In this document: positions 2,222 to 39,690 of the stretch, one piece after another | How positions within the stretch are numbered: the stretch's first letter is position 1 | Layout: every line of letters begins with the position of its first letter | Origin: Oscillatoriales cyanobacterium | Lineage (GTDB): Bacteria > Cyanobacteriota > Cyanobacteriia > Cyanobacteriales > Microcoleaceae | Direction of reading: 5' to 3' | NCBI GenBank assembly: GCA_004293365.1 | Contig: RDYN01000041.1 | Location: forward strand, 1-64,000 | Length of the DNA: 64,000 nt | Notes under the pieces: generated by a model | What the model was told of the DNA's origin: nothing | Database searches by the model: none | Seen by the model: only the letters and a program-made list of their open reading frames with translations | Program-made: the position numbers and the translations under genes

Positions 2222-4201
2222 ATGCCGTGTGCTGTTATCCTGACTGCTCTCTCAGTTGAATACCTTGCCGTTCGTGTCTATCTGTCCGATCTTCAGGAAG
2301 AGATTCATCCCCAGGGGACGATTTATGAGCGGGGGAAGTTCGCTCAGTCTCAAGGTGTGTGGGATGTGGGTATCGTCGAAATTGGAGCCGGCAATCCCGG
2401 TGCAGCAATGGAGGCAGAAAGAGCGATCGCTCATTTCAATCCTGATGTTATCCTCTTTCTCGGAGTAGCTGGGGGAATGAAAGAGAAAGATGTAGCCCTT
2501 GGTGATGTTGTCGCATCTACTAAAGTTTACGGGTACGAGTCAGGGAAAACAGAACAGACTTTCAAGCCTCGACCTGAAATTGGCTTGTCTGCTTATAGTC
2601 TAGAGCAACGAGCCAGAGCCGAAGCCAGAAGTGGTGACTGGCTGAAAAGACTATCCGTTTGTGAGCCGATCCCTCGCGTCTTTCTTGCGCCAATTGCAGC
2701 GGGTCAGAAGGTGATTGCTTCCACGAAATCGGAGGTTTTTCAATTTCTGCGATCGAACTATGGGGATGCAGTTGCTGTTGAAATGGAAGGATTTGGTTTC
2801 CTGGAGGCAGCGCGTGCCAATCAGCAGGTGTCTGCGATGGTTATTCGGGGAATTTCTGATTTGATTGATAATAAGACTGAGGTAGATAAGATAGGGTATC
2901 AAGAAATTGCTGCTCGTCACGCTAGTGCTTTTGCATTCGAGATTTTGGCAAAGTTTAAATCAGCACCTCCGCTTGTTCGTAAACAAGTTGTTCCAGAGAC
3001 TTCCCCATCGAATTCTCGCAACTTCTTTGCATTTGATGATGCCTGGGTGGGGCGGTCAAAGCTGCTCAGGGATTTAAGCTATCGAATTCAGGAATCCTGT
3101 CGTCTACTCATGCTGGTAGGGATTACTGGCATTGGCAAAACCGCATTAGGTGAACGGCTTGCGGTAGAGTTGGCAGATTGGTTTGATAACGATTGGACTC
3201 GGTTTCATCAGGAAAACTTTGAGGATGAGCAGCAATCCTCAGATTTTGCCAGTGTTGCTGCACGCTGGCTGGAGAAGTGGGGTGAATCGATTACCACTGA
3301 AGACCGCAAAGACCCTCAGCGACTGCTGTATCGATTGGTTCGCCATCTCTGCGAGAATCGCTATCTGGTGCTGATGGATTCACTGGAGAACATTTTACAG
3401 GGCAACGGGGAACAGGGCTGGAATGACTTTCAAGATGAATGGTGGCTCAAGTTCTTTGATAGTTATTTGAAAGCACAACTCTGTCAAACCTGCATTATTC
3501 TGACTTCTCAAGACCTACCTCGACAAATTGAAGCCATCGGTACGAAATCTAGAAACTTCAAGTATTGCCAACTTTTAAAAGGTTTGGAGCAACCAGAACA
3601 GATGGCTTTGTTTGAAAAAACGCAACTAGATATAAACCCCACTTCGGCAGGAACACTCTACTTGGAACGAATTGGAACTGCCTATGAGGGACACCCTCTG
3701 GCACTGCGGGTGATTGCTGGAGAAATCAAGAATAAGCCGTTTGAAGGCAATGTTGTTGCGTACTGGAACAAATACGGAAATGAGGTTGAGGAAGTTGAAA
3801 AGGCGATCGCGGAATCTCTAGAAGGAAAGTCTAGTGGAGCCAAGGATAAGTGGCAACTCGATCAGTTTACGAAGACGCTGCGGAGAAAGGTGCGTTCGCG
3901 CTTTAACAAAGACTTTGCTCGTCTACGGAACGATGCAAAATGGGCGTACATTTTACTCTGTGAATCATCTGTCTACCGATGCCCTGTTCCAGAGGATTTT
4001 TGGTTGAGCCACCTAAAGGATTGGGATCGAAACGAAGAAGAGCAAAAAGCAGCGTTGGATACGTTACGAGAGCGATACCTTGTTGAGGAAATAGTTCAAA
4101 ACAACCAGCACTTGTTAAGACAACATAATTTGATTCGCAGCGTATCTCTGGAACATCTGAGCCAAATGGATTATGAGATAAATGGAGTAGCCGATGAGTG
4201 A
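2222..4201 (+). CDS. Nucleosidase-NB-ARC NTPase fusion (NLR-like sensor, module A)
   Basis: The 659-residue protein has three parts. Residues 1-245 are a nucleoside phosphorylase/MTAN-fold domain: it opens with AVILTALSVEYLAV, and keeps the ribose-binding EMEG (187-190) and the catalytic-type Asp in ISD (D213). Residues ~275-560 are a STAND/NB-ARC NTPase with Walker A GITGIGKT (300-307), Walker B RYLVLMDS (D386), an ILTSQD sensor strand and a GHPLAL motif. Residues ~560-659 look like the winged-helix end of such NTPases. The stop overlaps the next gene by 8 bp, so the two are probably co-translated. Nucleosidase-STAND fusions belong to NTPase-centred conflict systems related in architecture to NLR immune receptors; activity on a particular nucleoside is inferred. 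A close paralogue of the NTPase part lies at 35651-37045 with an HTH instead of the nucleosidase. The ATG has only a weak ribosome site. Confidence 0.9.
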   Translation: MPCAVILTALSVEYLAVRVYLSDLQEEIHPQGTIYERGKFAQSQGVWDVGIVEIGAGNPGAAMEAERAIAHFNPDVILFLGVAGGMKEKDVALGDVVASTKVYGYESGKTEQTFKPRPEIGLSAYSLEQRARAEARSGDWLKRLSVCEPIPRVFLAPIAAGQKVIASTKSEVFQFLRSNYGDAVAVEMEGFGFLEAARANQQVSAMVIRGISDLIDNKTEVDKIGYQEIAARHASAFAFEILAKFKSAPPLVRKQVVPETSPSNSRNFFAFDDAWVGRSKLLRDLSYRIQESCRLLMLVGITGIGKTALGERLAVELADWFDNDWTRFHQENFEDEQQSSDFASVAARWLEKWGESITTEDRKDPQRLLYRLVRHLCENRYLVLMDSLENILQGNGEQGWNDFQDEWWLKFFDSYLKAQLCQTCIILTSQDLPRQIEAIGTKSRNFKYCQLLKGLEQPEQMALFEKTQLDINPTSAGTLYLERIGTAYEGHPLALRVIAGEIKNKPFEGNVVAYWNKYGNEVEEVEKAIAESLEGKSSGAKDKWQLDQFTKTLRRKVRSRFNKDFARLRNDAKWAYILLCESSVYRCPVPEDFWLSHLKDWDRNEEEQKAALDTLRERYLVEEIVQNNQHLLRQHNLIRSVSLEHLSQMDYEINGVADE

Positions 4202-6296
4202 GATTACACCTCCCGGTCAGTATATTCTCGATCAACTCAACCTTGACTCATCTAGCTTGAAGTCGGTAAAACCAAGAGATAACCGTTCACAGTATCGAGC
4301 TGCTATTAACTGGCTTAGTAGTTATCAGCCACAACTAGATGAATCAAAACCACAACAAGTTCGATGTCTTCTAGAAGCCTTTCATCATCTTTGCGAAGTC
4401 AAAGATTTAGATAGGGTTGCTCAACTTTTTTCTATTCAAATATTTCCTTATGTCAATGAAGATCTATATAATCAACTATATATTTGGGGACAATATGATG
4501 AATTGTCTGGAATCACCATGAGATTAATGGAACTTTTAGAGCTAAGCTCAGAAACAGATAAACAAGTTTGCAATCTAAAAGTAATCTGCTTAAAAAATTT
4601 AGCATTAGTCGAGTTTGTTCGCGGTAATTGCAATGCTTCTATTGATTATTATACTCAGCAGTTAAAAACATCAATACAGATTGAAGATTTGCACGGAAAA
4701 GCTTCTGCCTTAATTGGTTTAGGGCATAACTCAAAAATTTTAGGACAGTACCCAGAAGCAAATACCTATTATCTTTCTGCTCAAGATATTGGATCAAAAC
4801 TATCATATCCAAAATTGGTCATGTCTGCAAAATCAGGATTGGGAAGTATACAGATTCACATGGGACAGTATGAGCTAGCAATCCCGTATTTTCAGGAGCA
4901 GTTGAAAATAGCAAAAGAGATATCTGATAACTTAGGAAAAATACAAGCTCTTGCCGATCTTGGCAATGTTTATTCCCTGATAGGAGATCATGAAGCAGCA
5001 GTAGAAAGCCATTTAATCGCTCTTAAAATTACCCATTTAATTGAAAATCCAGAGGGTGAGGCTAAGATGCTTTTACATTTAGGATTTACTTTCTATATTC
5101 AACAGGAATATCGCGCAGCTATTTCTTTCTATAAGCAGTCTCTCACTATTTCTCGTTCAATCGGACTTTTGCTAGAGGAAGCAGAAGCTTTAGCACGTGT
5201 GGGAGTGTTGGAGAGAAAATTAGATGATTCACGAGGTACAAAAGAGTCATCTTTGGATAAGCTTCATCAAGCTTTATATCTATTTAAAAAAGTAGGTAGT
5301 CGTTCAGATGAGGCGCGAGTCTTAAAAGAAATGGCAGAGGTATACGACGAATCGAGAGACAAAAAGCTAGCCATTAAAGCTTGTAAAGAAGCTCTGGAGA
5401 TTGCACGTGAACTAAAACTTCCTATACAAGAGGATTGTCTAAAACTAGCAATAAAAATTGATGTTGAAAAAAATGTTGAAAAACTATCTAAAACTAGAAT
5501 GTTTAGAGAAATTGACTTAAAGGAATTCGATTGGCTCAAAGATGAAATTGATATTGTCCTTATTACTGCTACTAACATAGAGCTTAACGCGGTCTTGGAT
5601 AATTTAAAGCCATATCCAACTAAAAAAAATATTTTCAAGATATTTGAGGGGCCCGAAACTTACTATTTAGGTAAATTTGCCGCGTTTAAAGCAGTTGTTA
5701 CAAAATGTCGAATTGGATCAATCGGTGAAGGATCGGTTATTTTGGCGACTGAGCAAGCGCAACGTATATGGAAGCCGAGAGCTATTATTATGGTAGGCAT
5801 TGCTTTTGGTAAAGATTCACAAAAGCAAAAGATAGGCGATGTGCTAGTTGCTTCACAAATTATTTCATACGAACCACAGCGTCTTGGTGAGCCTGTTCAA
5901 AACCGGGGTAGTATCCCACCCAGTAATACAACGCTGCTCAACCGATTCGAGAATGTTCATAATTGGGAGTTTTTTGGTATTGATGGATCTCCTTGCGATC
6001 TTCGAGTTGGACCTATTCTGTCAGGTGAAAAGCTGATTAATGATCGAGAATTCAAATCGGCTCTGTTCCAACAATTTCCACAAGCTGTAGGTGGTGAAAT
6101 GGAGGGTTCTGGTCTATGTGCAGCATCAGGGCGAGTTGGCGTTCCGTGGATTTTAGTAAAGTCTATCTCTGATTGGGCAGATGGTCAAAAAAATGAGGAG
6201 TACCAACAATTAGCTGCTGCTGCTGCCGTTTCACTGGTTCATAAGGTACTTTTGCAGAGGACAGTTCTTAACTCCATTAGAAAAGTATCTCAATAA
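4194..6296 (+). CDS. TPR protein with C-terminal nucleosidase domain (module A partner)
   Basis: This 700-residue protein starts inside the end of the NTPase gene (8-bp overlap). Residues 1-~100 form a conserved lead-in (PPGQYILDQL, LEAFHHLCEV) that matches the start of the TPR protein at 37066. Residues ~130-430 are tetratricopeptide repeats of about 40 residues (for example ALIGLGHNSKILGQYPEA). Residues ~450-700 are a second nucleoside phosphorylase-fold domain: it opens DIVLITATNIELNAV and keeps EMEG (635-638) and ISDW with D660. Both proteins of the operon thus carry a nucleosidase-like domain with intact signature residues. The likely role is ligand sensing through the TPRs and effector action through the nucleosidase, partnered with the upstream NTPase; this is inference. 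Base composition is more A+T-rich than the neighbours, in keeping with acquired DNA. Confidence 0.88.
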   Translation: MSEITPPGQYILDQLNLDSSSLKSVKPRDNRSQYRAAINWLSSYQPQLDESKPQQVRCLLEAFHHLCEVKDLDRVAQLFSIQIFPYVNEDLYNQLYIWGQYDELSGITMRLMELLELSSETDKQVCNLKVICLKNLALVEFVRGNCNASIDYYTQQLKTSIQIEDLHGKASALIGLGHNSKILGQYPEANTYYLSAQDIGSKLSYPKLVMSAKSGLGSIQIHMGQYELAIPYFQEQLKIAKEISDNLGKIQALADLGNVYSLIGDHEAAVESHLIALKITHLIENPEGEAKMLLHLGFTFYIQQEYRAAISFYKQSLTISRSIGLLLEEAEALARVGVLERKLDDSRGTKESSLDKLHQALYLFKKVGSRSDEARVLKEMAEVYDESRDKKLAIKACKEALEIARELKLPIQEDCLKLAIKIDVEKNVEKLSKTRMFREIDLKEFDWLKDEIDIVLITATNIELNAVLDNLKPYPTKKNIFKIFEGPETYYLGKFAAFKAVVTKCRIGSIGEGSVILATEQAQRIWKPRAIIMVGIAFGKDSQKQKIGDVLVASQIISYEPQRLGEPVQNRGSIPPSNTTLLNRFENVHNWEFFGIDGSPCDLRVGPILSGEKLINDREFKSALFQQFPQAVGGEMEGSGLCAASGRVGVPWILVKSISDWADGQKNEEYQQLAAAAAVSLVHKVLLQRTVLNSIRKVSQ

Positions 6297-7512: not shown

Positions 7513-7559
7513 CCCGGTTTCCGTCAAAGCACGAATCATTGATCTTAACCGAACACAAA

Positions 7560-8108
7560 ATGACTGAAGACCCCATCCTGAAAATCTGGCTGCTAGAATA
7601 CGACAAACTCAAAGCCGAGCAAACCCAGCGGATTGGCTTCCGAGATAACCTCCTCTACGTTACCTTGGGTTTGTTCGGTACGATCGTGTCCTTTGCTGTT
7701 TCCAACTCCGCCAACTACTACGCTTTTCTACTCCTCCCCTGGGCTTCCTTGATTCTCGGCTGGACGTACCTAATAAACGATGAAAAGATAAGTGCGATCG
7801 GGCGATATATTCGGCTCACCTTAGTCGAAAAGGTCAAAGAAAAGACCGGACACGCAGATGTAGAATCTCTATTTGGCTGGGAAATTGCCCACCGGAGCGA
7901 TCGTAGACGATCGCGCCGCAAGATCGAGCAACTGATTGTTGATGAAATTACCTTCGTCGTGTCAGGAATTATTGCCTTAATTTCCTTCTGGGTTTTAGTA
8001 CCGGGCGCGGCTTTAGCAATCCATATTTTGGGTGGGGTTGAACTAATCCTGCTCCTGATCTTGGGTTGGGAAATTATCGTGTATGCCGACTTGGCAAAGG
8101 GGCGATAA
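7560..8108 (+). CDS. Membrane protein of unknown function
   Basis: I chose the ATG at 7560 over the TTG at 7539, giving 182 residues (MTEDPILKIWLLEYDKLK). An amphipathic N-terminal helix is followed by four likely membrane segments in two pairs: LLYVTLGLFGTIVSFAV and YAFLLLPWASLILGW, then FVVSGIIALISFWVLV and GGVELILLLILGWEIIV. A basic cytoplasmic loop (HRSDRRRSRRKIEQ) separates the pairs. The layout resembles small membrane proteins of unknown function found beside conflict genes, but I cannot name a family. It follows the DUF2442 gene by 47 bp on the same strand. Confidence 0.7.
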   Translation: MTEDPILKIWLLEYDKLKAEQTQRIGFRDNLLYVTLGLFGTIVSFAVSNSANYYAFLLLPWASLILGWTYLINDEKISAIGRYIRLTLVEKVKEKTGHADVESLFGWEIAHRSDRRRSRRKIEQLIVDEITFVVSGIIALISFWVLVPGAALAIHILGGVELILLLILGWEIIVYADLAKGR

Positions 8109-34004: not shown

Positions 34005-34721
34005 ATGACTGACTCGATTTCTACTTCTCCATTAGACTCGGCCGCCGATACAGCCGAACTCCGCTCACAGTTGAGGTCGGGTTCAGAGAAAACTCAACTG
34101 CAACTGCTGCAACAACACATAGCAGATGCGGGTTGGGATGTATTGATGGAATTTTTATTAGAGCGCCAGTCGGAGGAACCGACGGCGGTAATGGGTAAGG
34201 TTTACCAAATTCTTTATAGCGCTGACTCTCCGAGAGCGAGTGAGTTTTTGCGATCGAATTTTCCGACGGGAATTGTGCCGCTGCGATCGGACTCTAACAT
34301 TGACTACACTCCGCTGCAACAATTATTGGCCCTACAGGAATTTCAAGAAGCCGATCTATTGACTTTAAACAAACTTTGTGGGTTGGCGGGCGAGACAGCT
34401 TCGGCGAGAAAGTGGCTGTATTTTACAGAAGTTGAAAGTTTGCCCGTGGCAGATTTGCAAACAATTAATACCCTGTGGAAAGTGCATTCCGAAGGCAAAT
34501 TTGGCTTTTCGGTACAGCGGGAAATTTGGCTGAGTTCGGGCAAGAATTGGGATAAGTTGTGGCCGTTAATTGGCTGGAAGAAGGGGAATAATTGGACGCG
34601 GTATCCGCAAGAGTTTATTTGGGATTTGAGCGCGCCTAGGGGTCATTTGCCGCTGTCGAATCAGTTGCGGGGAGTGCAGCCGTTTGCGGCTTTGATGGCT
34701 CATCGGGCTTGGGTGAAGTAA
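34005..34721 (+). CDS. gun4: GUN4 tetrapyrrole-binding regulator
   Basis: The 238-residue protein has the two-domain form of cyanobacterial Gun4 (about 230 residues). An all-helical N-terminal bundle (residues 15-95, LRSQLRSGSEKTQLQLLQQH) is followed by the GUN4 core (105-235) with LLTLNKLCGLAGETASARKW, FPVADLQ-like VADLQTINTLWKVHSEGKFG and FSVQREIWL. It binds protoporphyrin IX and Mg-protoporphyrin and stimulates Mg-chelatase in chlorophyll synthesis. The full N-terminal domain distinguishes it from the many GUN4-fused signalling proteins. It stands alone, with the heptamer tract in its leader. Confidence 0.93.
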   Translation: MTDSISTSPLDSAADTAELRSQLRSGSEKTQLQLLQQHIADAGWDVLMEFLLERQSEEPTAVMGKVYQILYSADSPRASEFLRSNFPTGIVPLRSDSNIDYTPLQQLLALQEFQEADLLTLNKLCGLAGETASARKWLYFTEVESLPVADLQTINTLWKVHSEGKFGFSVQREIWLSSGKNWDKLWPLIGWKKGNNWTRYPQEFIWDLSAPRGHLPLSNQLRGVQPFAALMAHRAWVK

Positions 34722-35455: not shown

Positions 35456-35650
35456 CTAGGGTAAGTGATTGACTGCGGGGCAAGTAAGTTAGTTAACTTT
35501 TTGCTGTCCGCATCTTCAGAATGCCTGATGTGTAGGGGTTTCAACGCTTGACTTTTTGACTGACTTTTTGACTGACTTTTGACTGACTTCTGCTACTGCT
35601 GCAAAAATGAGTCAAAATTGAAGCTAATAGGAGCTAGTTAGAGGGCAAGC

Positions 35651-37045
35651 ATGGTGGCTACAATCAAAGCATCGAAAGAAGGACGGGAAAAATTTAAGGA
35701 GGCAAGAGAAAACAAGAGATGGAATCAAGAAGCTGATGCTTTGCTTACTCAAAGTGGTGTTCGGCGCTCAACCGTGCAGGCACTAGAGCAAGGGAGAAAC
35801 ATTAGGCAGGAAAACTTTGTCGCACTTTTCAAGGCTGTCGGGATAAAAAACTGGGAGACATACGTTGATAACAGCGCAACTCAGGCTTCATACATGGAGT
35901 TTTTGGTCTGTGATGATGGCTGGGTAGGTCGGGAGACACTAATTGATGAATCGATCGAGAAGGTGTGCGGATCTTGTCGAGTCTTACTTATAGTTGGCAT
36001 TACTGGTATCGGTAAAACTGCTTTGGCGGAACGTGTCGTTCAGGAATTGCGAGGAGATTGGAGGGAACACAGGGATAATTTTGAAGATGAGAAAAAAGTT
36101 TCAGATTTTGCCAGCGTCGCGCTGCAATGGCTGGAGAAGTGGGGAGAATCTGTCCCAAAAGACGATCGCAAACCAGAACAATTATTACGGCGGTTAGTCA
36201 AACACCTGCGCGAAAATCGGTATTTAATCCTGATGGATTCTCTTGAGTACCTATTGACAGGGAATGCAGAGGATGGCTGGGGTGATTTTGCTGATGAGTG
36301 GTGGGGTAAGTTTTTTGTAAGTTTCTTGGCAGAATCAGATTGTCAAAGTCGATTTATTCTGACTTCTCAGGATTTGCCAACTAAGTTTGAGAAAGCGGAG
36401 TGCGATCGCTATAAAAATCGTTGGTATTGCCAACTTTTGAAAGGATTAGAAATACCCGAACAAGTGGAGTTATTTCAAAAAGCTGAACTGGATGGCGATT
36501 TGGAACTAGCACACAGTCCCCTGCGAGTAATTGGAGAAGTTTATGACGGGCATCCTTTGGCTTTGCGGACGATCGCTGGAGAAATTAAAGAGTCTTATGG
36601 TAGGAAAGTCAGTGCTTACTGGAAAGAGAATAGCCGTTACATTGAAGAGGTGAAAGAGGCTATTGACGAAGCTCGCGATCGAGGAATAGTTAAAGGAGAT
36701 GAGGATAGGTGGCAGTTAGCATCATACACGAAAGTCTTGCGAAGGAAAGTTAAGGAACGGATCGATCGGACATTCGATCGTTTAAAAAATGATGCGTATG
36801 ATGCTTATTGTTTACTTTGTATGGCTTCGATTTATCGATGCGAAGTCAAGGAAACTTGGTGGCTGATTAATTTAGAAGATGAGGGTTATAGTGAGGAACA
36901 GCAAAAGGCAGCAATGCAAACTCTGCGCGATCGCTATTTAGTTGAAGATGGAGGAATTGATGATGAAGATAATCGGCTGGTGGGACAACATAATTTGATC
37001 CGCAGTGTGGCGATCGATCGCCGATTGATGCTACCAAAAAACTGA
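35651..37045 (+). CDS. HTH-NB-ARC NTPase (NLR-like sensor, module B)
   Basis: The 464-residue protein starts with a Cro/XRE-like helix-turn-helix (residues ~15-70, RRSTVQALEQGRNIRQENFV). A STAND/NB-ARC NTPase follows: Walker A GITGIGKT (116-123), Walker B RYLILMDS (D196), FILTSQDLP, and GHPLAL at about residue 300. A winged-helix end closes the protein (TLRDRYLVEDGGIDDE, then GQHNLIRSVA). From the Walker A onward it is a clear paralogue of 2222-4201, with most residues identical by eye (for example FEDE, SDFASVA, WLEKWGES, LMDSLE). The nucleosidase domain of module A is replaced by the HTH. A TPR gene follows 20 bp downstream. DNA binding by the HTH and a defence role are inferred. Confidence 0.9.
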   Translation: MVATIKASKEGREKFKEARENKRWNQEADALLTQSGVRRSTVQALEQGRNIRQENFVALFKAVGIKNWETYVDNSATQASYMEFLVCDDGWVGRETLIDESIEKVCGSCRVLLIVGITGIGKTALAERVVQELRGDWREHRDNFEDEKKVSDFASVALQWLEKWGESVPKDDRKPEQLLRRLVKHLRENRYLILMDSLEYLLTGNAEDGWGDFADEWWGKFFVSFLAESDCQSRFILTSQDLPTKFEKAECDRYKNRWYCQLLKGLEIPEQVELFQKAELDGDLELAHSPLRVIGEVYDGHPLALRTIAGEIKESYGRKVSAYWKENSRYIEEVKEAIDEARDRGIVKGDEDRWQLASYTKVLRRKVKERIDRTFDRLKNDAYDAYCLLCMASIYRCEVKETWWLINLEDEGYSEEQQKAAMQTLRDRYLVEDGGIDDEDNRLVGQHNLIRSVAIDRRLMLPKN

Positions 37046-37065
37046 AGAAATTGGATAAATTCACC

Positions 37066-38262
37066 ATGACAAATAACCTGACACCATCGGGAGATAAGGT
37101 TTTGGAACAATTAGGTATCAATCCTCATAATCTCAGTGTCCATTTTCCAAATCGCGAGCAGCGGCTTCAGTACAGAGCAGTTGTACAGTGGCTAACTGAT
37201 TATAAATCGAAGCCGGGTGCTTCCAATTTAGAGAAAGTAAAGGGATACTTGGAAGCGTTTCACCATCTTTGTCAGGTGGAAGATTGGATACGAAGTAGCA
37301 AAATTATATCAACTCAACTCGATACACATACCAATGACGAATTGCATCATCAATTATTACTCTGGGGCTACTATAGGGAACTGATTGAGCTGTACAACCA
37401 ACTTTGGGGCAAATTAAGCCTTAATCATGATGCTATTTTTATCGCCAATCTTTGCAATAATTTGGGCAATGCTTACTATGGACTAGGAAAATATTTCCAA
37501 GCAATTGACTATTATCAACAGAGTTTAAGTATTGCACGGGCAATTCGCGATCGCGAAGCTGAGGGAAGGGCACTGGGAAATCTGGGCAATGCTTATAATT
37601 CGCTAGAATACTATCTCAAAGCGATTGACTACCACAAACAGAGTTTAAGTATTGCAAGGGAAATCGGCGACCGCAACGGTGAGGGATGCGCGTTGGGAAG
37701 TCTGGGAGATGCTTGCAATTCGTTGGGAAATTATGGCCAAGCCATCGAATATCTCAAACAAAGTTTAGTCATTGCAAAGTCAATCGGTAATCGCAACAGT
37801 GAGGGATGCGCGTTGGGAAATCTGGGAAAGGCTTACAATTCGTTGGAAGATTATCCCCAAGCCATTGAGTATTTCCAGAAGAGTTTAACTATTTTCCAGG
37901 AAATTGGCGATCGCAACGGTGAAGGAAAAGCACTGGGAAATCTAGGACTTGTTTGCGGTTTGCTAGAAGATTATACCCAAGCCATTGAGTATCTCCAACA
38001 AAGTTTAATCATTGCAAGGGAAATTGGCGATCGCAACACTGAAGGAATCACACTGTCAGATATGGGAGTTGCTTACTATTCTCTAGGAAAATATGCTGAA
38101 GCCATCAACTATCACCAACAGAGTTTAACTATTGTACGGGAAATCGGACAACGCCACGCACAAGAGCGGGCTTTACTTAATCTAGTCAGAGCTTTCTGTG
38201 CTTTAAGAAAGTATGACAAAGCAATGGAATGCAATCAGCAGCACTTAGCTCTCATCCAATGA
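37066..38262 (+). CDS. TPR protein (module B partner)
   Basis: I start at the ATG at 37066, which aligns MTNNLTPSGDKVLEQLGINP with the start of the module A partner; the TTG at 37051 is less likely. The 398-residue protein shares the lead-in (LEAFHHLCQVEDW) with 4194-6296. It then consists of about seven 40-residue TPRs (for example NLGNAYYGLGKYFQAIDYYQ), encoded by ~120-bp DNA repeats that are still very similar to each other. The C-terminal nucleosidase of the module A partner is absent. A ligand- or partner-sensing role with the upstream NTPase is likely. The similar DNA repeats suggest active expansion or gene conversion. Confidence 0.9.
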   Translation: MTNNLTPSGDKVLEQLGINPHNLSVHFPNREQRLQYRAVVQWLTDYKSKPGASNLEKVKGYLEAFHHLCQVEDWIRSSKIISTQLDTHTNDELHHQLLLWGYYRELIELYNQLWGKLSLNHDAIFIANLCNNLGNAYYGLGKYFQAIDYYQQSLSIARAIRDREAEGRALGNLGNAYNSLEYYLKAIDYHKQSLSIAREIGDRNGEGCALGSLGDACNSLGNYGQAIEYLKQSLVIAKSIGNRNSEGCALGNLGKAYNSLEDYPQAIEYFQKSLTIFQEIGDRNGEGKALGNLGLVCGLLEDYTQAIEYLQQSLIIAREIGDRNTEGITLSDMGVAYYSLGKYAEAINYHQQSLTIVREIGQRHAQERALLNLVRAFCALRKYDKAMECNQQHLALIQ

Positions 38263-38341: not shown

Positions 38342-38707
38342 TCACAAGCCTAAAATCACACCTAGGGCTACTGCCAGCTCATCCATAAAATTTTCATCTA
38401 AATGACCGATTACCCTAATAACCCTGGATTTGTCGATGACTCGAATCTGTTCGCAAAGTATTACTGAATCTTGATTTAAACCCCCAACTCCAGATGGAAC
38501 AAATACATGAGAAGGTAAAAGAGCGCGACGAATTTTAGTAGTAAACGGTGCAATAATAGTATGAGGACTTACTGCATTAGCGCGATCGATCTGTAAGATG
38601 ACAACAGGTCTTATACCAGCTTGCTCCGTACCAACTACCGGATTCAAATCGCATAACACGACATCTCCTCTTGTATATGTTGGATTTACTGATGAAGCTG
38701 CTACCAT
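38342..38707 (-). CDS. MazF/PemK-family endoribonuclease toxin
   Basis: The 121-residue protein carries the PemK/MazF signature: TRGDVVLCDLNPVVGTEQAG, then IRPVVILQ, TIIAPFTTKIRR and VILCEQIRVIDKSRV. The Arg after the TEQAG loop and the Thr in APFTT occupy the usual active-site positions. Such toxins cleave mRNA at short sequences. Its start overlaps the upstream antitoxin by 7 bp. The reading frame is intact. Confidence 0.92.
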   Translation of the reverse strand: MVAASSVNPTYTRGDVVLCDLNPVVGTEQAGIRPVVILQIDRANAVSPHTIIAPFTTKIRRALLPSHVFVPSGVGGLNQDSVILCEQIRVIDKSRVIRVIGHLDENFMDELAVALGVILGL

Positions 38708-38970: not shown

Positions 38971-39690
38971 TCAAAGACTTTCATTGAGCTGTTTTTGTTC
39001 TCCTTCCGGCTGCACTTGCTTCTGCAAACTAATTTTGTCGCCCACTTCATAGCCAGAATTAAAACCGGCTTCGCTGCTGATTTGAGAATCTGTTCTCGTT
39101 TTAACTTTAACCCCTCGGCTTTCTAAATAATCGGCGATCGCCAGTTGATTCTTTTCAAACATCGATCGCACTACAATAGCAGGAGTACCCGCCGTATCAG
39201 CCGAGCCAGGAATCCCCGACTCCTCCATCTCCCGCTTTTGTTCCAGCAGCCTTTGCCGCAACCTTGTCGCGCATCCCACCCGAAAAGCATTCAGATACGC
39301 CAGTCCCCTGCCATTTCCTTTGCGGTATTTCGCCCTTTGCTCGATCGCAGAACTCAAATACTCATACAAGTGCGTGCAAACAATCAGGTTGGTAGAACTT
39401 CCCACCAAAAACATACTACCAGTATAAGTGTTCCGCATACCAGTACAACCGTTAGCTTCAGCAATTCCCGACAGCAGCATCATTTTCCAAGTGACGAATT
39501 TGGATGTTGTTTCAACTGAGTTTTCCTCAATCTCTTCTTGGTGATTCGGGCCTAAATCGGCGAGATCCAGATTGTACTGTGCTAGTAAAAGGGAAGCTTT
39601 TTCGGCCGCAGCAGTCGATTCGTTTTCATTGGATGAGGTGGCGAGGGCTAACAGCTTTTTGATTTTTTCGACAATACTTGTGTCTGCCAT
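38971..39690 (-). CDS. DUF2786 domain protein
   Basis: The 239-residue protein begins with the DUF2786 signature (IVEKIKKLLALATSSNENES, then AAAEKASLLLAQYNLDLADL, residues ~5-50). A second conserved region follows at ~80-200 (WKMMLLSGIAEANGCTGMRN, then FLVGSSTNLIVCTHLYEYLS and AFRVGCATRLRQRL). The combination is usual for the family, which occurs in phages and mobile regions as well as chromosomes. No biochemical function is established that I can name. It lies downstream of the DUF790-XPB gene pair on the same strand, with a 122-bp duplication between. Confidence 0.8.
   Translation of the reverse strand: MADTSIVEKIKKLLALATSSNENESTAAAEKASLLLAQYNLDLADLGPNHQEEIEENSVETTSKFVTWKMMLLSGIAEANGCTGMRNTYTGSMFLVGSSTNLIVCTHLYEYLSSAIEQRAKYRKGNGRGLAYLNAFRVGCATRLRQRLLEQKREMEESGIPGSADTAGTPAIVVRSMFEKNQLAIADYLESRGVKVKTRTDSQISSEAGFNSGYEVGDKISLQKQVQPEGEQKQLNESL

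Follow-up and report, generated by a model that had tools for sequence, protein, structure and literature searches.

STAND and NLR proteins have usually been studied as single chains in which an arm and a sensor keep the motor shut. Two TPR-containing examples, PH0952 of Pyrococcus horikoshii (PDB 6MFV) and MalT, follow the order NOD, arm, TPR (PMC6468293); in PH0952 the arm spans residues 394-496, and the NBD of the resting form is contacted by both arm and TPR (PMC6468293). Apaf-1, CED-4 and the plant NLR resistosomes have an NB-ARC/winged-helix NOD fold with a variable N-terminal output and a C-terminal sensor, and in plant NLR networks several sensors may act through one helper. Avs and bNACHT proteins combine an N-terminal effector, a central STAND NTPase and a repeat sensor. 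Conflict-system proteins of multicellular hosts join AP-ATPase and TPR to TIR-like and nucleoside-phosphorylase domains (PMC7159879, PMC8195603), and diversified STAND sensors occur in multicellular bacteria (PMC10907252).

The locus described here lies in a 64,000-nucleotide stretch of cyanobacterial DNA (the window), and resembles each of these systems in its domains while departing from them in being split. PH0952 and MalT are one chain, whereas here the arm and sensor form a separate gene that can multiply and be exchanged; moreover, the HTH of MalT is C-terminal and that of the present module N-terminal. In plants each sensor is a whole NLR that includes a NOD, which the sensor chain here lacks. 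Avs and bNACHT are antiviral systems of single chains, in contrast to the two-gene module here, and the AP-ATPase of the conflict-system proteins is described as fused to TPR (PMC7159879, PMC8195603). In searches of open-access literature, the coverage of which was incomplete, a split NOD/arm-TPR pair did not come up, and the novelty of the split form is therefore provisional. The module consists of two ORFs, found where the first-pass annotation had placed them (35651-38262), with the following features.

35651-37045, + strand: gene 1, an ORF of 464 aa encoding an XRE-like HTH and a NOD
35996-36019, + strand: Walker A (GITGIGKT), at positions invariant in the alignments
36986-37003, + strand: QHNLIR, at the end of the winged helix, with H447 and L449 invariant in the alignment
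37066-38262, + strand: gene 2, an ORF encoding a lead-in, read as an arm from its alignment, and a TPR sensor (TPR_12, E 2e-79)
37066-37425, + strand: gene 2 lead-in, kept in partner genes adjoining the NTPase and read as the STAND arm (HD2)
37459-38144, + strand: gene 2 TPR array, 5.7 copies of a 120-bp unit (Tandem Repeats Finder)

In gene 1, the XRE-like HTH occupies residues 9-62 and the NOD (NB-ARC and winged helix) residues 84-457. A Pfam scan placed NB-ARC above the cut-off; the N-terminus gave a weak HTH_3 match (E 0.0015) below it, and the HTH helices were seen in the AlphaFold model (pLDDT 83). Foldseek matches of this model included plant resistosomes (their NODs), Apaf-1, CED-4 and Avs3. 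The protein carries a P-loop NBD, Walker A and B, a GxP-type motif and a winged helix, and GxxGIGKT, D196, GHPLAL and H447 were invariant in the NTPase alignment; QHNLIR presumably takes the place of the NLR MHD motif, with which we equate it by position. Judged by sequence and model, the gene 1 NTPase is a member of the STAND/AP-ATPase (NB-ARC) family, and ADP/ATP switching and oligomerisation are predicted for it. The ORF of gene 2 can be opened at a TTG (37051-38262, 403 aa), but the ATG at 37066 is the more likely start, as it is conserved in the family.

The lead-in of gene 2 is most likely a STAND arm (HD2), judging by its position, size and predicted helices, although an arm sequence profile found no significant match among PDB sequences. 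In relatives in which the two genes are fused, the arm directly follows the winged helix. One natural fusion (L121) gave an AlphaFold model of pLDDT 84, with arm helices at ~470-554 (low confidence at 491-494 and 525-541), that matched 6MFV over 766 alignment columns, the closest full-length solved fold found for it. If the lead-in is the arm, and given the order in PH0952, the split thus falls between winged helix and arm. The order NOD, arm, TPR typical of TPR-sensor STANDs was found both across the gene pair and within the fused single chains. In contrast to the usual single polypeptide, the domains are on separate ORFs here and in most relatives, and hence the module is a variant rather than a plain member of the TPR-sensor STANDs. 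An alignment that combined split with fused chains was set aside because it put the NTPases out of register.

The best 80 of 175 loci of relatives were taken from species genomes (individual loci carry L-numbers below). Cyanobacteria, mostly filamentous genera, hosted 78 of these best 80, the other two being Thiomargarita and Parabeggiatoa. Relatives were found on nine cyanobacterial plasmid records; searches of IMG/VR and of 50,697 phage records yielded none, and phage carriage was rejected on that basis. The output position was most commonly taken by an XRE-like HTH (62 of 94 rows), and otherwise by a LuxR-type HTH, nucleosidase, SEFIR, nucleosidase plus SEFIR, CHAT or unknown domains. Of 84 core hits, 69 had arm-TPR as the ORF following the NTPase and five had it fused in frame; L039 and L041 are further fusions, giving seven fused loci. 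For the remaining ten core hits, some at contig ends, an arm gene was not found close by. In the relatives, a comparison of positions by hand put strong arm matches beside the NTPase or in its cluster; the exceptions were a single match at a contig end and three weak matches. Two to four arm-TPR genes surrounded one NTPase at several loci (L058, L061, L072, L080 and L083); their arms were mostly 30-60% identical, and therefore they are not fresh copies. A Leptolyngbya boryana plasmid has the annotated order membrane protein, NTPase, three TPR genes. In a Tolypothrix PCC 7712 plasmid (L149:5455-8185), the partner region behind the NTPase is broken by an IS701-family transposase, and in a conjugative Gloeothece PCC 7822 plasmid (L151:3737-9176) the NTPase-TPR pair adjoins cas1. 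The TPR partners at L044:7095-9059 and L056:1245-3215 end in hydrophobic, nearly identical membrane segments, and their NTPases are 56% identical. PADLOC gave only generic P-loop and TPR matches for the HTH module, none of its defence-system models being matched.

The HTH module is likely a sensor-gated, NLR-like switch with an HTH output, and we hold with moderate confidence that it works as two chains, the sensor chain shutting the motor in trans and the HTH domains clustering on release. Chain 1 would comprise the output domain and NOD (NBD, helical domain, winged helix), and chain 2 the arm (HD2) and TPR sensor. At rest, by analogy, the arm of chain 2 would dock on chain 1 and keep the NOD closed around ADP; this predicted docking in trans is modelled on the covalent arm and TPR of PH0952 and MalT. 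A predicted ligand at the TPR array would free the NOD, leading to ADP/ATP exchange and ring assembly and bringing the N-terminal domains together. With an HTH in this position the output would probably be transcriptional, most likely an alteration of transcription, and in a sister clade the same motor would drive nucleosidase, SEFIR or other effectors. With the sensor encoded by a gene of its own, several sensors could serve one motor. Counting against this reading are the ten core hits without a nearby arm gene, the lack of a significant arm match among solved structures, the low confidence of some predicted arm helices, the below-cut-off HTH match with its strong divergence between alleles, and the movement of whole partner genes described below.

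The module is located between two genes that are widely retained in the genus.

34005-34721, + strand: gun4, one border of the slot (Pfam GUN4, E 2e-62)
38971-39690, - strand: DUF2786/DUF7168 gene, the other border (Pfam)

Of the 29 further genomes of the genus that were searched, 27 have a gun4 copy 88-97% identical to this one, and the DUF2786 gene was present in 30 of 30 same-genus genomes. The interval between them is a variable slot; in other Microcoleus genomes it contains divergent alleles or a NACHT protein, or lacks an NTPase. Clade-A alleles (core identity 78-94%) were found in L044, L045, L052, L146 and L147, alleles of 52-54% identity next to these border genes in L056, L057, L069 and L117, and an allele of 46% in L144; at some of these loci the retrieved sequence includes just one of the border genes. 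An NTPase was absent from the slot in L135, L136, L137, L138, L139, L142 and L143. In L140 and L141 the slot is taken by a one-chain NACHT protein whose N-terminus is LuxR-like, a further likeness to bNACHT. In these two proteins (L140:1206-3698 and L141:1617-4097) a LuxR-like HTH is joined to NACHT-NCH2 by a linker that keeps 'YDDETWVG'; this resembles how the NB-ARC core begins and suggests a chimera. Neighbours identified with Pfam were GUN4, DUF2786, DUF790 and an XPB-type helicase; the MoxR AAA+ and vWA genes that mark MoxR-vWA ternary conflict systems were not seen among the scanned genes.

Breakpoints between slot alleles were located by a change-point fit and by DNA identity profiles.

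35975-35993, no strand: 5' breakpoint, DNA identity changing from 56-58% to 86-90% against L047, L048, L049 and L051
37272, no strand: 3' breakpoint against L044, inside the arm, DNA identity changing from 94% to 56% (change-point fit, logLR 170)

The 5' breakpoint falls just before Walker A. L050 and L057 showed the converse pattern, with 63% DNA identity through the NTPase, rising to 93% where the winged helix ends and beyond, and between L044 and L056 identity changed inside the arm, from 60% to 84%; L048 and L050 belong to a single MAG, in which strains may be mixed. Alleles whose cores were 79-87% identical had HTHs only 32-54% identical. Breakpoints at both ends together with divergent HTHs thus indicate, from the DNA of the alleles, that output and sensor are exchanged by recombination around a conserved motor. 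Since whole partner genes move between NTPases that are 54% identical (L050/L057), contacts between the chains must be tolerant. Tight core-arm coevolution was rejected, since core and arm identity correlated only moderately (r 0.45) and the exchange of partners obscures the relation. The recognition helix was not specially variable; helix 2 varied equally or more, and we make no claim about it.

The same divergence, down to 32-54% beside well-conserved cores, counts against the HTH being a regulator, since a conserved regulator would not need it, and lends some weight to a different reading, in which the HTH serves as the adaptor or specificity tag of a defence or kin-discrimination receptor whose killing effector is encoded elsewhere or on the TPR chain. 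The variability of the chromosomal slot fits such a receptor, as do the partners that end in membrane segments and the nucleosidase, SEFIR and CHAT domains of the sister clade, which serve as effectors in conflict systems (PMC8195603). However, no effector gene recurred beside the HTH types, and the nearest HTH relative in the genome, 30% identical, is part of another STAND protein and not of an effector. We consider the adaptor role possible, though rather unlikely. A homotypic version, in which the HTH pairs with a partner effector in the same genome, was rejected, as no close HTH was found there.

A TPR protein that acts downstream of the NTPase as effector or scaffold, rather than as its sensor, would account for the C-terminal nucleosidase of some partners and the membrane segments of others, but we regard this as improbable. 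Fused members carry the TPR protein right after the winged helix, where PH0952 and MalT have arm and sensor, and the TPR array is replaced between near-identical alleles, as expected for a sensor. It is more improbable still that programmed frameshifting yields one fused protein from the two ORFs, even though these overlap or nearly touch and true fusions exist. Offsets at the junctions were mixed (+1 in 32, -1 in 25 and in frame behind a stop in eight), which led to the rejection of a programmed frameshift; start codons were present at the junctions and slippery runs were rare. Mixed offsets and start codons make two translationally coupled chains likelier than a frameshift product, consistent with the two-chain switch.

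The window contains a second pair of this family, the first module.

2222-4201, + strand: first module gene 1, PNP_UDP nucleosidase and NOD
4194-6296, + strand: first module gene 2, arm, TPRs and a C-terminal PNP_UDP nucleosidase

Upstream of it, at 24-1586, is a gene for a CHAT-domain protein. The first-pass annotation had described the two pairs as paralogous, with shared NTPase blocks and a shared TPR lead-in, and this was borne out. Over 383 residues the two NTPases share 54% identity (E 4e-130), with FEDE, SDFASVA, WLEKWGES, LMDSLE and DLP all aligned in register. Their alignment begins at residue 84 of the HTH copy and residue 268 of the nucleosidase copy, which is the start of NB-ARC, and stops in the last residues of the winged helix; the similarity is therefore bounded by the domain. 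The partner proteins, in both of which Pfam found TPRs, are 30% identical over ~400 aa, with a clear common lead-in of ~110 residues (T-P-x-G, LEAFHHLC) followed by diverging TPRs. Generic P-loop similarity of unrelated STANDs was rejected as an explanation, given 54% identity against a background of 23-29% in the same genome: a search of the 7.3 Mb found only two NTPases of the family, the other 17 matches being STAND NTPases at 23-29% identity. The lead-in was likewise present at the two modules only, and no third copy of the module was found in this genome. The attached domains do differ, with an HTH on one NTPase and a nucleosidase on the other, to which it should be added that Pfam places two nucleosidase domains in the first module, one per chain.

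The origin proposed for the two pairs did not hold. We built a maximum-likelihood tree of 94 cores (quick search, SH-aLRT support), which was unrooted and from which no direction of change is claimed. The HTH copy fell in a 12-row, all-HTH clade (support 97, starred), and the nucleosidase copy belonged to an effector clade of 18 rows with nucleosidase, SEFIR and related outputs (98, starred); a nucleosidase output was also seen in L112, within an otherwise HTH clade (100, starred). The nearest rows were L044 (94%) to the HTH copy and L067 (74%) to the nucleosidase copy, whereas the copies were 56% identical to each other. By this phylogeny the two cores are old relatives that share one contig by chance, their clades having members in other genera. 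A local duplication of the pair with outputs swapped within 30 kb, suggested by one contig and equal orientation and order, can practically be dismissed, because the copies are only 54-56% identical and sit in separate starred clades with their nearest relatives in other genomes. The idea of a natural experiment survives for a conserved NTPase/TPR pair with exchangeable outputs, although the informative swaps are found among the alleles of other strains and not in the two window copies; the DNA breakpoints of the strain alleles are the sharper experiment.

A companion gene also separates the two types of module.

7539-8108, + strand: membrane-protein gene, predicted multi-helix, no Pfam family

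Its relatives occurred at nine other loci, all of the effector type (nucleosidase/SEFIR-type), L112 included, and none was found near HTH-type modules among the loci examined (Fisher p 4e-9, counting loci as independent despite their relatedness). The lack of this gene in HTH types favours a regulatory output, although the HTH match is weak and its DNA binding putative.

In this family, a chain of the NLR kind has apparently been divided where motor would pass into arm, its sensor part can occur in several copies, and output and sensor are cleanly swapped among strains with the motor nearly unchanged. More speculatively, the family may form a split-NLR network, in which several side-by-side arm-TPR sensors serve one NOD in trans, and the gun4 slot of Microcoleus would shuffle motor, output and sensor between strains, like the polymorphic immune and allorecognition receptors of plants and fungi, making it an exchangeable recognition locus of a multicellular bacterium. 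We offer this tentatively. If the two-chain switch is true, natural alleles could be used to test whether autoinhibition requires a covalent link and in what way specificity is kept apart from output, and would provide a simple bacterial comparison for sensor/helper NLR networks.

Two further elements flank the HTH module. An array (35549-35589) consisting of 3.5 copies of the 12-bp direct repeat TGACTTTTTGAC lies approximately 60-100 bp upstream of the HTH gene and is a possible operator; the repeat also occurs in L045 with a different copy number. Just downstream, on the - strand (38342-38707), lies a putative toxin gene of MazF/PemK-like sequence, which occurs in only some of the slot alleles.
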